Below, one piece after another: positions 1,323 through 60,675 of a stretch of 64,000 bases of DNA; position 1 is the stretch's first letter, and each line of letters begins with the position of its first letter. Source of the DNA: Azospirillum oryzae. Its GTDB lineage: Bacteria > Pseudomonadota > Alphaproteobacteria > Azospirillales > Azospirillaceae. Below the pieces are notes generated by a model. It ran no database searches, was not told where the DNA came from, and was given only the letters and a program-made list of their open reading frames with translations. The stretch covers positions 370,001-434,000 of the forward strand of contig NZ_FXAK01000001.1 in NCBI RefSeq assembly GCF_900177515.1, given 5' to 3'. Both the position numbers and the translations under genes were made by a program.

Positions 1323-3176
1323 TTATTTCTTCAAATATGTGGCAGGGTGCGGCGCGGTGTCCGCGGCCGGCGGCGCCTGGACGGCGGCCCACATCATCGA
1401 CTCCGTCGCGGGTGCGGCCGGCTCCTCGGCGACCGGCCCGGCAGAAGATGGCTTCGCCGGCGCGGTGCCGCGCACCGGATTGGCGGCCCATTTCAGGATC
1501 GCGGCCTTCTTGTTCGGCGACAGGTCGCGCACCGCCGGCATGTAGTTCGGGTTCTCTTCCGGAAGCGACAGGGCGGTTTGCAGCGAATACAGGTGTTTGC
1601 ACACGCTGTCATAGTCGCCCATGTTCAGCACCGGCAGCATCACCGGATAGAGCGCGGCGTATTGCGCCAGGATCGGCTTGATGTCGGCTTCCCAGTTCGG
1701 CTCCTCGGGGATCTCGTAGCCGCTCCACACCAGGAAACTGATGAAGTCCCAGGGGTTGCTGTAGGTGTCCGCGTTGGCGTCGCTCAGCGTCGGCCGCACG
1801 CCATAGACCTGCCCGTCGATGTCGTCCACCGCGCGCGGCTGACCCGGATCGCCGGCGGAGAATGTGACGGCGGCCTTGCCGGCGGCATCGGTCCGGACCG
1901 ACGGCGGGAAGCCCAGCGCACCCGCCGGCACGCCGACCGGCGGGTCGCCCTCGCCGCCGAGCGAGCTGTTGTCGAAGGCCAGCGCGACCTCGGCATCGGC
2001 CAGCGGCTTGCCGAAGACGGTCGCCCACACCGTGGTCTCGGCGCTGTCGCCGGGAGCCATGCGGAAGACGAACTCGTCGGCGCGCAGGGCCTTGCCGTCG
2101 GCCGGCTCCTGCCCCAGCAACGTGTCGGCGCCGGCCTTGCGCACGGCCAGCGGGTTCGCGGCAACGGCCGACAGCTGCGCATCGGTCAGGGCGATGTCGG
2201 CGATGCCGGCGGTGCGCCGGTACCAGCCGTTGTCGGGGGTCACCTCGCCCAGCGGCTGGAAGCCCTGCACCGCATCGAGATAGCCGACCTGCAGCGTCTC
2301 GCCGACGATGTCGCCGCGCCATTCCTTGAAGGGGATGGAGTTGCCGAGGTCGATGGCCAGCGCCTTGCGCGCCTCGTCCACCACCGCGGTGGCGTAATAG
2401 AACAGGGTCGGGGCCGACTGGCTCTGCTTCTGGCTCGGCTGCAGCTTGCGGCCCAGCGTGAAGAAGCGCGGCTCGTCCGCGCGGGCGACGCCGATGCTGC
2501 CGGTGATCAGGCCCATGGTGAAGTCGGGCAGCGGCGGATAGCGGGTGCCGTCGTCGCCGATCCAATAGCCGGCGTTGTAGCCCACCACATTGAACTTGAT
2601 CGACAGCAGCCCACCCGGCCCGGCAGCGGCCTGCAATTCCTGCAGGAAGGGCGATGCCGCGACGTCGCCCCAGGCGAGATCGGACAGAACCGACTGCCAG
2701 GCGGCGCCGTACATGCAGGCGGGATGCAGCTTGTGCTGCGGCAGCGACCCCGGCGTCAGGCTGCGCTTCCACAGGTCGGTGAAGGACGCAACGGCAAAGT
2801 TGCTGCGCAGCGCGGCCTGCCCGTCACCGCCGACCAACCGGACGACGAGACCCCAGATGGCCGAGACCATCTGCTGCTCGCTGTCCAGATCGACCATCTT
2901 GGCCGGCGGCTGGTCGTCGGCATCGGCCAGGGTCATCGACAGCACGGGGTCGCCGGACACGGTGCTGCCGTCGCCGCGCACGGCACCGGTCACCGCGCAG
3001 TCGGTCAGACGCCAGACACCGGTGCCGTAGGGATTCCAATAGCCGATGTCCCAGTTCGCATAATCGGCCGCCGTATAGTTCGTCCCGTCATAGTTGGACG
3101 GAAAGTTGTTGACGGTCGAAACGTCGGCGATGAACTTGCCGGTGAAATTCAGCCGCGGCCCAGTCAAATATGCCAT
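1323..3176 (-). CDS. VioB N-terminal-domain-like protein
   Basis: A 617-residue protein starting MAYLTGPRLNFTGKF behind a GGGGAAG ribosome-binding site. The opening resembles the VioB start, where a FPRIHFRGW-like motif is followed by an N-rich segment. Near residues 540-565 it has NYMPAVRDLSPNKKAAILKWA, matching in position and pattern the YMPSTRELS...KYL segment that precedes the ferritin-like domain of VioB as I recall it. A proline/alanine-rich tail ends the protein where VioB would continue into that domain. Together with the next gene it looks like VioB split in two. There is no signal peptide. The product and any heme or metal requirement are unknown. Confidence 0.6.
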   Translation of the reverse strand: MAYLTGPRLNFTGKFIADVSTVNNFPSNYDGTNYTAADYANWDIGYWNPYGTGVWRLTDCAVTGAVRGDGSTVSGDPVLSMTLADADDQPPAKMVDLDSEQQMVSAIWGLVVRLVGGDGQAALRSNFAVASFTDLWKRSLTPGSLPQHKLHPACMYGAAWQSVLSDLAWGDVAASPFLQELQAAAGPGGLLSIKFNVVGYNAGYWIGDDGTRYPPLPDFTMGLITGSIGVARADEPRFFTLGRKLQPSQKQSQSAPTLFYYATAVVDEARKALAIDLGNSIPFKEWRGDIVGETLQVGYLDAVQGFQPLGEVTPDNGWYRRTAGIADIALTDAQLSAVAANPLAVRKAGADTLLGQEPADGKALRADEFVFRMAPGDSAETTVWATVFGKPLADAEVALAFDNSSLGGEGDPPVGVPAGALGFPPSVRTDAAGKAAVTFSAGDPGQPRAVDDIDGQVYGVRPTLSDANADTYSNPWDFISFLVWSGYEIPEEPNWEADIKPILAQYAALYPVMLPVLNMGDYDSVCKHLYSLQTALSLPEENPNYMPAVRDLSPNKKAAILKWAANPVRGTAPAKPSSAGPVAEEPAAPATESMMWAAVQAPPAADTAPHPATYLKK

Positions 3177-3758
3177 CGCGCTTCCCCCGCTTCGTCATGA
3201 TAACACTGGATGAAATCTGAATTTTGAAGACATGCGGACGCCTATGGATCGGCTTACCCGCCCCCATCACGCAAAATTTACACGGATATACATTGCATTA
3301 CGGCCGGATATGTCCGGCTGCTGCTTCAGCGTGCCTGCTCCATTTTCATCATCTTCCATATCACGAAAATGGATTAATGAAAACACAAATACACGCCATG
3401 GGTATTGCTGGATATCAATGGGCGCGAAAAATTGAATATGTTCAGATATACACAGTCAGATGCGCATGTTTGCTCAGCCGGTTGCCAACCTCCTGCGAGG
3501 ACACCGGCGGGCATAGGTGGTGCGATGGAGCGCAGCGGCAATGCATCACCGCAATTGCCGTCACACCCCTGCCCTTCACATGTGTCTTGGTTCACGGTCG
3601 GAATCCGACCATCGACGCCACTGATCCGTTCAGGATGCCCAAAGTCCGAAACTGCGAAGCCGGTTTCCAGCCCGCGGCGCGGATGGTGACGCGGCTGTAC
3701 CGGTGCGGCGAAGACCGACGCCGTCCGTCTCAGGCCATCCGCATCACGGCCGTCCGTT
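3177..3758. other. Intergenic region, 582 bases, locally AT-rich
   Basis: No convincing gene. The 3200-3470 part is clearly more AT-rich than its surroundings and probably carries the promoter of the VioB-like operon. A 15-base perfect palindrome at 3596-3610 (separate entry) is identical to the one beside parB. The rest shows nothing I can name. Confidence 0.5.
3596..3610. other. Candidate ParB-binding site, distal copy
   Basis: The sequence GGTCGGAATCCGACC is an odd-length perfect palindrome. The same 15-mer is the left half of the double palindrome immediately downstream of parB at 60628-60675. Two exact copies of a 15-mer about 57 kb apart, one of them beside parB, suggest a replicon-specific parS. 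ParB binding itself is inferred. Confidence 0.45.
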
Positions 3759-4148
3759 TCAAGGAATGACGGTCGTCGTCTGCCCCGGATTGATCACCGA
3801 CACCACGCCGCCCCAGTTGCACAAGCACTTCGACACGTTGTCCAGCGCCGGCATATGGTCCAGCATCACCGTCGGCGCGCCCGGCACCCAGGGCGTCAGG
3901 GTGGCGGGAATGCAGGGCATCGGCGTCAGCACGCCCATCGCCGCCGCCGTCGCCGAAGCCACCGTCGGGTTGGCGAGGCTGGTGCACATACCGAACGGCA
4001 TGATGTTGACCATCGGCTTGTGGTCCGTGATGTTCGCCGCCGGCTGGTTGCCGTCCATGACGCCATGGACGGGAAGCACAACGAAGGTCGACGGGGCCAT
4101 CCCGAAGCTGCATTGAAGCGTCGCGCCGTTCACCACCTGCATCGGCAT
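3759..4148 (-). CDS. PAAR-like DUF4280 protein
   Basis: A 129-residue protein with the DUF4280 pattern: VVNGATLQCSFGMAPS at the start, NITDHKPMVNIMPFGMC in the middle, TPMPCIP, and CLCNWGGVVSVINPGQ at the end, with cysteines spread through as in the family. PAAR-like proteins cap the spike of contractile injection systems such as type VI secretion and often sit beside the effector they deliver. No VgrG, Hcp or other secretion gene lies within the window. GGAAGGA precedes the ATG. It is co-directional with the VioB-like pair, 582 bases upstream of it, so a functional link is possible but unproven. Confidence 0.85.
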   Translation of the reverse strand: MPMQVVNGATLQCSFGMAPSTFVVLPVHGVMDGNQPAANITDHKPMVNIMPFGMCTSLANPTVASATAAAMGVLTPMPCIPATLTPWVPGAPTVMLDHMPALDNVSKCLCNWGGVVSVINPGQTTTVIP

Positions 4149-56249: not shown

Positions 56250-57659
<1,410 letters not shown>

Positions 57660-58425: not shown

Positions 58426-58746
58426 GAAGGGTCTCCCTGTTCGAAATCGAGACCGGGAGCCGTGTGGGTCCCGACGTCGGAAGCATCGGAGAAACCGGGT
58501 CCGAGAGTCTTGATCTTGGTCAAACAATTGTGCGTGGGCGACCCTGCCGGTGGAAAACCCTGGATGCTCAGGGCCTGGCGGCAGATCGCGGACGGCGAGT
58601 TCGACGGGATAAGCCCCGTGGAGGCGCTCCGTGCCGGCCGGACCACGTCTTCTGGAAGGTCTGCCGCCACGCTCTCCCAACGGCCTCCTTGACCATTGTA
58701 GCATCTACCCCTACCCTCCGGCCCTGTTCATGCTGGGGAGGGGACG
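58426..58746. other. Divergent intergenic region between SDR and parA
   Basis: A 321-base gap that should hold both promoters. A TTGACC element at about 58692 could be part of a parA promoter. I see no copy of the 15-base palindrome found beside parB. Confidence 0.35.
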
Positions 58747-59760
58747 GTGAAGGGCGAGGAGTTGCGGACCCAACGGGAAGCGAAAGGACTGTCGCAGTCC
58801 GAATTCGCCGTCTGGCTGAACGGGCGGCTGCAGCGCCGCTATGACAAGCAGAAGATCAGCCGCTGGGAAAACGACGCGGAGCGCATCCCGGCGGCCGTCG
58901 ATGCGCTGATGACGCGCGAGATCGCCGGGCCGGAGCCGGAAAGGCTGGGCGGCCCTGCACTGGTCGTCGTCGTGGCGAACCAGAAGGGCGGCTGCGCCAA
59001 GACGGTGTCGGCGGTGAACATCGCCTCGGCCCTGGCACTGAAGGGCTATTCGACCATGCTGATCGACTGCGATCCGCAGGCCAACGCCACCCAGCATCTC
59101 GGCATCGATTCCTACACGATGGAGACGGAGGGCAAGACCCTCTACTACGTCATGCATGGCGACCTGGAACTGGACGACATCCTGGTCACCGTGCCGGAAA
59201 GCGGCCTGCGCGTCGCCCCCTCCTCCATCCGGCTTGCCGAGACGGAGGTGGAGCTGGGCAAGGAAGCCGGTGGCGACTTCATCATGAAGGAGAAGATCGC
59301 CGCGGCGAAGCGCAGCTTCGACTTCATCGTCATCGACACGCCGCCCAACATCGGCGAGCTGACCAAGAACGCCATGGTCGCCGCCCACACCGCGATCATC
59401 CCCTGCCAGACCGAGAAGTTCAGCCTGCTCGGCATGGCCTTCCTGCTGGAAAACGTCGCGAAGATCCGCCGGCGGATGAACACCGCGCTCGGCGTGCTCG
59501 GCATCGTGCCGACCATCTTCAAGCAGCGGGAACGCAACGACCGCGAGGTTCTGGAGCAGATCCAGGAACAGTACGGCCCGCATCTGCGGGTGTTCGATCC
59601 GGTGCCGAAGGCGTCGGTCTATGCCCAGGCGACCTCGGTCGGCCGCGCGGCGGTGGAAGCGATGCCGGACGTGGCCGGCGCCGCCGTCTATCGCGACGTC
59701 GCCTCCGCCCTGGTCGAGGAACGCACCGCCCGCATCAAGGAGGTCGACCGTGTCGCGTAG
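58747..59760 (+). CDS. parA: ParA-type partition ATPase with N-terminal helix-turn-helix
   Basis: A 337-residue protein. Residues 1-50 look like an XRE-type helix-turn-helix, with LRTQREAKGLSQSEFAVWLN and KISRWENDAERIP. The ParA ATPase follows: deviant Walker A NQKGGCAKT with its signature Lys, DCDPQANAT, and IVIDTPPNIGELT. Type Ia ParA proteins carry such a DNA-binding part and repress their own operon. The GTG at 58747 follows GGGGAGGGG. It overlaps parB by 11 bases. It should segregate this replicon. Confidence 0.9.
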   Translation: MKGEELRTQREAKGLSQSEFAVWLNGRLQRRYDKQKISRWENDAERIPAAVDALMTREIAGPEPERLGGPALVVVVANQKGGCAKTVSAVNIASALALKGYSTMLIDCDPQANATQHLGIDSYTMETEGKTLYYVMHGDLELDDILVTVPESGLRVAPSSIRLAETEVELGKEAGGDFIMKEKIAAAKRSFDFIVIDTPPNIGELTKNAMVAAHTAIIPCQTEKFSLLGMAFLLENVAKIRRRMNTALGVLGIVPTIFKQRERNDREVLEQIQEQYGPHLRVFDPVPKASVYAQATSVGRAAVEAMPDVAGAAVYRDVASALVEERTARIKEVDRVA

Positions 59761-60625
59761 TCTTCTCGGCAAGGCAACCAAGCCGGCGCAGAGCGCCACC
59801 GCAGCCGCAAGGATGAAGGACGCGCTGTTCGGCCTCAGCCGCCACGCGCCGCATCTGGTCGAGGTGCCGGTCGACCGCATCGCCCCCAACCCGAACCAGC
59901 CGCGCCGCGAGTTCGACGAGGAGGAACTGCGCGGGCTGTCCGCCTCCATCGAGCGTCACGGGTTGCAACAACCGATCGGCGTTCGCCAGACGGCCGACGA
60001 CAGCTGGCAGCTGGTCTATGGCGAGCGGCGGCTGCGGGCGATGCGGCTCTTGGGACGGGAGACCATCTTCGGCATCCTGTTCACCGGTGACGACGACGAG
60101 GAGATCGCCATCGTCGAAAACCTCCAGCGCAGCGACCTGAACCCGCTGGAGGAATCCGACGCGCTGGCCCGACTGGCCGAACGGCACGGCTATTCCCACC
60201 GCCAGCTTGCCGAGGCGCTCGGCCGCAAGAAGACCTACGTCACCATGATGCTGTCCTTCCAGCGTCTGGCCCCGGCGATCCGCGAGGACTATCCCCTGCT
60301 CCGCCCGACCAAGGCGAAGCTGGAGGCGCTGGCCGCCATCGACGACCAGGACGAGCAGCTCCGCGCCTGGGAAAAGCTGAAGCGCGCCGAGGCCGGTTCC
60401 CCGCCCTCCCCGGCCGCCGCCCAGCCCAGGCGCGAACCGGTCAGCGTCCCCGCCGGCATCGCGTCCAGCGCCCTGCCCAAGCGCGTCTCCAAGCCGGTCT
60501 TCCAGGCCCGCGACATGCTGCAGGAACTTCAGGCCAAGCCGCAGCCGCTGTCCGACACCGACCGGCAGGCGCTGGCCGACATGCGCACCGCCATCGACGC
60601 CATCCTGGCCGGAGCCGGAAAGTAA
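59750..60625 (+). CDS. parB: ParB-type partition protein
   Basis: A 291-residue ParB. The CTPase motifs are IAPNPNQPRREFDEEELRGL (box near residue 45), then YGERRLRAMRLLG and AIVENLQRSDLNPLEESDALARL in parts. A helix-turn-helix lies at YSHRQLAEALGRKKTYVTMML. The C-terminal part should dimerise. The GTG at 59750 has an AAGGAGG site inside parA. Two copies of a 15-base palindrome follow within a few bases and are likely its binding site. Confidence 0.92.
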   Translation: MSRSLLGKATKPAQSATAAARMKDALFGLSRHAPHLVEVPVDRIAPNPNQPRREFDEEELRGLSASIERHGLQQPIGVRQTADDSWQLVYGERRLRAMRLLGRETIFGILFTGDDDEEIAIVENLQRSDLNPLEESDALARLAERHGYSHRQLAEALGRKKTYVTMMLSFQRLAPAIREDYPLLRPTKAKLEALAAIDDQDEQLRAWEKLKRAEAGSPPSPAAAQPRREPVSVPAGIASSALPKRVSKPVFQARDMLQELQAKPQPLSDTDRQALADMRTAIDAILAGAGK

Positions 60626-60627
60626 GA

Positions 60628-60675
60628 CTGGTCGGAATCCGACCACCGCGCGAAGGGTGGTCGGATTCCGACCAG
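60628..60675. other. Double palindrome, candidate parS centromere
   Basis: Two 20-base arms, CTGGTCGGAATCCGACCACC and its exact complement, are separated by eight bases. Each arm contains a 15-base palindrome, GGTCGGA-N-TCCGACC, so the site has two ParB-sized boxes in opposite orientation. It begins three bases after the parB stop. The same 15-mer recurs at 3596-3610. There is no T tract, so a terminator is less likely, although a stem this strong could also stop transcription. Confidence 0.6.

Follow-up and report, generated by a model that had tools for sequence, protein, structure and literature searches.

The inverted pair of palindromes behind parB in the window (the whole 64,000-nt stretch of DNA analysed here) is very probably, at about 0.93, the parS centromere of a type I ParABS system predicted to segregate a 682-kb secondary replicon of Azospirillum. 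At the level of sequence, this reading is carried by the sites themselves, their restriction to one contig, the presence of only one protein with a ParB_N domain on that contig, the co-occurrence of the pair with this ParB among genomes, and the change of the palindrome together with the ParB helix-turn-helix. From these we infer that ParB binds the sites and clamps with CTP, and that the system acts in segregation and incompatibility. Such systems are already known; the recognition sequence is new to us. The features of the window are as follows.

3596 to 3610, no strand: solitary third copy of the motif, GGTCGGAATCCGACC, an exact 15-mer 57 kb from parB
58689 to 58717, plus strand: candidate parA promoter, TTGACC, 17-nt spacer, TACCCT, in a block conserved in 12 aligned loci
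58698 to 58708: inverted repeat GTAGCATCTAC overlapping the parA promoter, a candidate operator
58747 to 59760, plus strand: parA, Walker ATPase with N-terminal helix-turn-helix, 337 aa, GTG start
59750 to 60625, plus strand: parB, ParB_N (CTPase fold) and HTH_ParB, 291 aa, GTG start
60628 to 60675, no strand: inverted pair as a whole, 20-nt arms and 8-nt spacer, read directly
60629 to 60645, no strand: candidate parS site 1, TGGTCGGA-A-TCCGACCA
60658 to 60674, no strand: candidate parS site 2, TGGTCGGA-T-TCCGACCA, inverted relative to site 1

Direct reading of the pair gave two arms of 20 nt each (60628-60647 and 60656-60675), 100% complementary and 48 nt long in total with the 8-nt loop, which is not itself palindromic. 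Each arm contains GGTCGGAWTCCGACC, an odd-centred palindrome of the form GGTCGGA-W-TCCGACC, located at 60630-60644 with centre A and at 60659-60673 with centre T; with its flanks the 15-mer extends to the 17-nt form TGGTCGGA-W-TCCGACCA. The first-pass annotation had described a 48-base perfect inverted repeat holding two inverted 15-base palindromes and starting three bases after parB, and both statements were confirmed, as the stop codon TAA of parB lies at 60623-60625 and the repeat starts at the third base past it. In 300 dinucleotide shuffles of the 103-nt stretch 3' of parB the arm was never longer than 11 nt (20 observed). The whole contig, C10, contains 184 palindromic 14/15-mers, 23 of them repeated, and the window motif is the sole repeated palindrome with two copies less than 1 kb apart; the next closest pair is separated by 1151 nt.

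The genes upstream of the pair encode the expected partition proteins. ParA matched PF13614 with 159 bits and, at residues 3-55, PF13560 (HTH_31) with 27.4 bits; the latter score is marginal, so that the helix-turn-helix previously reported as fused to ParA is present just above the Pfam cut-off of 27 bits. The coding start of parA is conserved in 12 aligned loci. parB overlaps parA by 11 nt, its start being chosen to match annotated orthologs that have the same 11-nt overlap. ParB matched PF02195 (77.4 bits) and PF17762 (39.9 bits), both above cut-off, and the search with phmmer revealed matches to Noc/ParB/Spo0J structures. Its ParB_N domain contains the stretch GERRLRA, which we take to be the motif linked to CTP-clamp loading. 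This protein is the only ParB_N match on C10, and the ParB_N matches of the genome are spread over seven contigs.

Upstream of parA, TTGACC and TACCCT were found in 12/12 aligned loci and GTAGCRTCTAC in 11/12 (L046 differs); the DNA further upstream is unconserved across the aligned set. The alignment comprised 12 loci including the window; 13 had been given, L050 was not located and L045 was left out. The GTAGCRTCTAC repeat is a candidate operator, to which the helix-turn-helix of ParA could bind. An ORF of an IS110-family transposase (PF01548 80 bits, PF02371 75 bits) is located at 56709-57659, about 1.1 kb ahead of parA. On the 3' side of the pair, genes of the NapC and NapB families are encoded on the opposite strand, with parB and napC convergent. 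No repC was found beside parAB, where the downstream genes are those of the NapC and NapB families, and on C10 the RP-C profile gave only a sub-threshold match, 378 kb from parAB.

The exact 15-mer occurs three times in the 7.67-Mb genome (10 contigs), and all three copies are on C10 (682,331 bp), against 0.028 exact copies that the C10 base composition predicts for the genome length. Only one site in the genome differs by a single mismatch, and it is likewise on C10, at position 215315; it lies inside a long ORF and was rejected as parS. Two-mismatch sites numbered 22, against 21 for the reversed control over the genome, and weaker sites are therefore uninformative. Outside the window, at C10:495283-495297, the palindrome GGTGGTCAGAATCTGACCACC differs from the motif by two changes, both symmetric, and may be a weak or decayed site.

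The third copy at 3596-3610 was absent from the first-pass annotation. It is situated between two minus-strand ORFs (1323-3176 and 3759-4148) and is overlapped by two plus-strand ORFs of 181 and 94 aa, which we take as chance. In genome G033 the site is kept as a solitary copy at a distance of 54 kb, within the same DNA as the window copy (flanks 97% identical over 420 nt). The cumulative GC skew of C10 is lowest near 560 kb and highest near 110 kb. With its position at 430 kb, parAB coincides with neither extreme, which gives no support for origin proximity and counts against the parS reading.

The motif was earlier said to differ from the canonical and repABC types of parS, and this was borne out. 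The canonical TGTTTCACGTGAAACA (up to two mismatches) was found at seven sites in the genome, all on C5, and was absent from C10, as was TTTCACGTGAAA. The repABC-type GTTNNNNGCNNNNAAC gave nine matches on C10, none of them palindromic (near-palindromic ones were left out of the scoring). Another sequence, TATTAGACGTCTAATA (up to two mismatches), is present twice in the genome, both times behind the parB of C2.

Among 45 Azospirillum genomes, the exact 15-mer was present in 15 and the tight inverted pair in 14, the latter being exactly those that encode a ParB of 66-100% identity. In the other 31 genomes of the genus, where the best-scoring ParB match is at most 47% identical, the pair was found in none; the association of pair and ParB gives a Fisher value of 6e-12 with relatedness ignored. 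None of 37 genomes of other genera has the pair, so that its 14 occurrences among 82 genomes of the order are all in Azospirillum. A near-identical ParB lacking the palindrome, the case sought to refute the proposal, did not appear: all 14 genomes with a ParB of at least 66% identity have the pair. The candidate centromere suggested in the first-pass annotation is thus supported computationally, as a prediction, by presence in 14/14 genomes with the ParB ortholog and 0/31 others. The fifteenth genome with the 15-mer, G011, has one solitary copy and no ParB ortholog, which counts against the parS reading; the copy lies inside a long ORF and was rejected as parS.

Over the 14 orthologs the 15-mer is invariant save for the centre base, and the first copy starts 4 nt past the parB stop in 13 of them and 5 nt past it in L050. 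The linker of 12-22 nt is little conserved beyond the first 1-3 bases at either end. Centre-to-centre spacing is 27-29 in ten loci and 35-37 in four, two classes that would lie about one helical turn apart. The recognition stretch RKKTYVTMML is identical in 13/14 ParBs of this family, and the fourteenth has LKKTYVTMAL. The most divergent ParB (66%), that of G028, comes with four further exact copies 2.3-3.9 kb beyond the pair. In this genome (L099:7210-8769) the four extra copies stand within 1.6 kb, and in three the match reaches at least GTGGTCGGAWTCCGACCAC. Carriers of the pair that have names are B510 pAB510b, A. lipoferum 4B AZO_p2 and A. ramasamyi unnamed2; several of these, and of seven orthologous loci taken from genome_contigs, are the same assemblies as genomes already counted and add no further evidence.

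Mildly unusual is the orientation of the two copies, which face each other. Their centres are opposite in 14/14 orthologs, A then T in 13 and T then A in one; reversal of the whole element leaves the centres unexchanged, and swaps therefore need two changes. Flank pairs between the copies covary (0.103 vs 0.068 +/- 0.011, reached in 0/500 shuffles, relatedness ignored), and four flank pairs are changed on both sides. The other odd-centred paired family (L107, L109) likewise has one A-centred and one T-centred copy. This reflects either a preference for facing sites or a hairpin-templated correction that maintains the complementarity of the arms.

As a hairpin the pair reaches -46 kcal/mol (z -7.8) with a perfect stem of 20 pairs, and this counts against the parS reading, since neither hairpin-forming ability nor flank covariation is required of parS. 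Stem and covariation, together with the convergent gene order, would also suit a transcription terminator or bidirectional RNA hairpin between parB and napC, unbound by ParB, as would two overlapping terminator-like matches on the minus strand with the tail TCTTACTTTC (the scan gave 4 vs 2.3 expected). However, the plus strand has neither a T tract nor a terminator match, and 14/20 pairs never vary, which is more than pairing alone demands. Moreover, unpaired single copies are present at position 3596 of the window and, in G028, as the four copies away from the pair, and the motif is confined to C10. Solitary and clustered copies, confinement to one contig and strict conservation of letters fit a protein site better than a hairpin, and we regard a terminator as very unlikely.

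The possibility that the pair serves as an operator, through which ParB (as a KorB-like protein) or ParA regulates genes and which has no centromere role, is one to which we give hardly any weight. Autoregulation is common in such operons, and ParB matches the KorB-domain profile weakly, with 21.6 bits just under the cut-off of 22.3. However, the sites lie 3' of parB and the parA promoter has a different repeat, and a centromere better accounts for the solitary site and the clustered sites of G028. A REP-like or mobile palindromic repeat that came to lie behind parB by chance would also be a compact, intergenic palindromic pair, but the genome-wide count (three exact copies only in 7.67 Mb, on one contig) rules it out for practical purposes, and the strict linkage to the ParB ortholog in 14/14 genomes speaks against it as well.

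The parS reading also extends to other ParB families of the genus, which were surveyed through 115 ParB loci. A perfect palindrome (arms of at least 7) was found within 80 nt of the stop codon in 68/111 loci (the 115 minus 4), against 129/4825 control windows taken from the same loci with coding DNA included. By the same 80-nt rule, the clade with the window ParB (54 rows) has a palindrome in 48/54. Other ParB families possess different palindromes at the same place. Related ParBs have single or far-spaced palindromes, which is a further point against a terminator.

When the 21 motif labels, assigned by hand with one doubtful and two imperfect, were placed on a quick ParB tree, they required 25 changes, against a minimum of 21 and about 72 in shuffles. 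Nine of the 12 listed motif groups with at least two rows correspond to one clade with a single change each; the groups ATGTGGGAC, GCTTTCGAT and CCGCTGAC do not form one clade on the quick tree. The palindrome therefore changes together with the ParB helix-turn-helix, family by family, which was the check proposed for a distinct ParB specificity and lends that proposal computational support. Since private palindromes are common in Azospirillum, that of the window is unexceptional, and many replicons of the genus seem to have a lock and key of their own.

No palindrome was assigned for 39/115 ParB rows, including those of C3, C7 and C5 of this genome, and this counts against the parS reading. 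These three ParBs must have their sites at other places, which is the case for the canonical sites on C5. A few palindromes that lie farther from the stop codon or are represented by one row only (L105, L133, L175, L186) were left unassigned. In the A. brasilense-type loci L051-L065 (without L064), the core GAGAAAATTTTCTC is present behind parB within a palindrome of 14-46 nt, and a second GAGAAAATTTTCTC precedes the parB stop by about 2 kb, presumably ahead of parA. In L155, L173 and L206, perfect palindromes of great length (51, 27 and 42 nt), centred on the motif of the family, were observed 3' of parB.

According to the available text of PMC7383237, Caulobacter ParB makes contact with guanine 1 of parS through R173, and with Q in this place adenine 1 is preferred. 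In the window ParB, K161 aligns with Noc Q158; the latter was equated with position 173 by applying the offset of the R186/201 pair, which the same text names. Position 1 corresponds to base 7 counted from the centre. Both the residue and the base position were taken from that text, and the residue table had been inspected by eye before the formal test. Among 21 families, each entered as one representative with a hand-assigned motif and not independent samples, R or K occurs with G at position 7 in 12/15 and other residues in 0/6 (p 0.0015). The three of 15 R/K families without G at this position count against the parS reading. Base 7 is the only position of 1-8 with p <0.05, and of the ParB columns 120-214 retained by the filter, residue 161 is the best. 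In the family GGTGAGAATTCTCACC the representative has K and other members have R, with the palindrome unchanged. An association of this kind between residue and base is also at odds with a terminator.

The held-out set consisted of 14 plasmid ParBs of other genera, picked from two listings of 60 rows with Azospirillum, A. baumannii, Legionella and others left out. A motif was detected for 9/14 ParBs (7 distinct); for L203, L204, L207, L208 and L210 (5/14) none was found by the rule used. Arginine occurred with G in 3/3 cases (2/2 when L197 is left out) and glutamine with A in 2/2. Lysine, the residue of the window ParB itself, occurred with G in 0/2, which counts against the parS reading. Taken alone, the held-out set is weak, with p 0.29 for R/K with G and p 0.048 for Q with A; in the combined sets the counts are 15/20 vs 0/8 (p 0.0004) and 4/5 vs 0/23 (p 0.0002), respectively. 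In L197 and L202 the repeated palindrome is located before parA and inside parB, not behind parB. Four of these non-Azospirillum plasmids (L197, L199, L200 and L202) have one copy of the palindrome inside parB, about 320-360 nt before its stop. The comparisons indicate that one contact residue agrees with one base, most weakly for lysine, the residue in the window ParB.

In the mechanism that we propose for the parS pair, two ParB dimers would each load onto one of the two odd palindromes of 17 bp via the helix-turn-helix domains, and the loaded ParB would then clamp and slide outward with CTP, like other ParBs. ParA would pull the ParB-parS complex, and the solitary copy 57 kb away may be an extra loading site. 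Because this parS differs from the chromosomal palindromes and from those of other replicons, each ParB is proposed to find only its own replicon.

A wider reading, tentative and rather improbable, would join these observations into about 20 mutually orthogonal ParB-parS pairs in Azospirillum, many derived from one ancestral operon with a palindrome directly behind parB. A readable code of residue 161 and base 7 would be one main axis of switching, and odd-centred pairs would have to face each other, given their A and T centres, even when swapped, and their covarying flanks. If this were true, two oppositely oriented and asymmetrically contacted dimers, or a cruciform, would be part of clamp loading.

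The genome of Azospirillum is split over many large replicons. Among the open-access matches listed (subscription journals being outside the scope), none dealt with an Azospirillum parS or with how the replicons are told apart at division. With this candidate centromere and those proposed for about 20 ParB families, incompatibility between replicons can be tested directly, and the candidate orthogonal ParB-parS pairs could be used for DNA labelling. The genus set is also natural data for a ParB DNA-recognition code beyond the ParB/Noc pair. The genus-wide set and the partial recognition rule matter more than the single site.

A Walker-type ParA, a ParB with ParB_N and helix-turn-helix, and replicon-confined palindromes near parAB place the system in type I ParABS. 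In type Ia plasmid partition, as in P1 and F, ParA has an N-terminal helix-turn-helix and the centromere is downstream of parB. The window system is similar in both respects, the ParA helix-turn-helix being marginal for what we take to define type Ia. However, its ParB resembles ParBs of the Noc/Spo0J type by sequence. The P1 centromere has a B-box and that of F is a tandem array, whereas the window sites are simple palindromes with neither.

Similar to the window system, chromosomal ParABS with TGTTTCACGTGAAACA (Bacillus, Caulobacter) has a ParA ATPase, a ParB with ParB_N and HTH_ParB, and short palindromes near parAB, with G as the 7th half-site base and a basic residue in the R173 position. 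However, chromosomal parS is even (TGTTTCAC followed directly by GTGAAACA) and the window motif is odd-centred, its sites form an inverted pair directly behind parB, and the window ParA has the N-terminal helix-turn-helix.

The repABC plasmids, as described in the available text of PMC9040568, are likewise large alphaproteobacterial replicons with partition genes in an operon; unlike these, the window parAB has no repC adjacent or downstream, and C10 has no palindromic GTTNNNNGCNNNNAAC. In the Bsr systems of Burkholderiales secondary replicons, as far as the available text of PMC5450999 goes, parS sites are 16-bp palindromes with a central CG, whereas the window motif is centred on one W base, with its copies at a distance of 29 nt. 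Similar to the window system, each Bsr replicon of a multipartite genome possesses its own ParB and its own palindrome, which diverge together.
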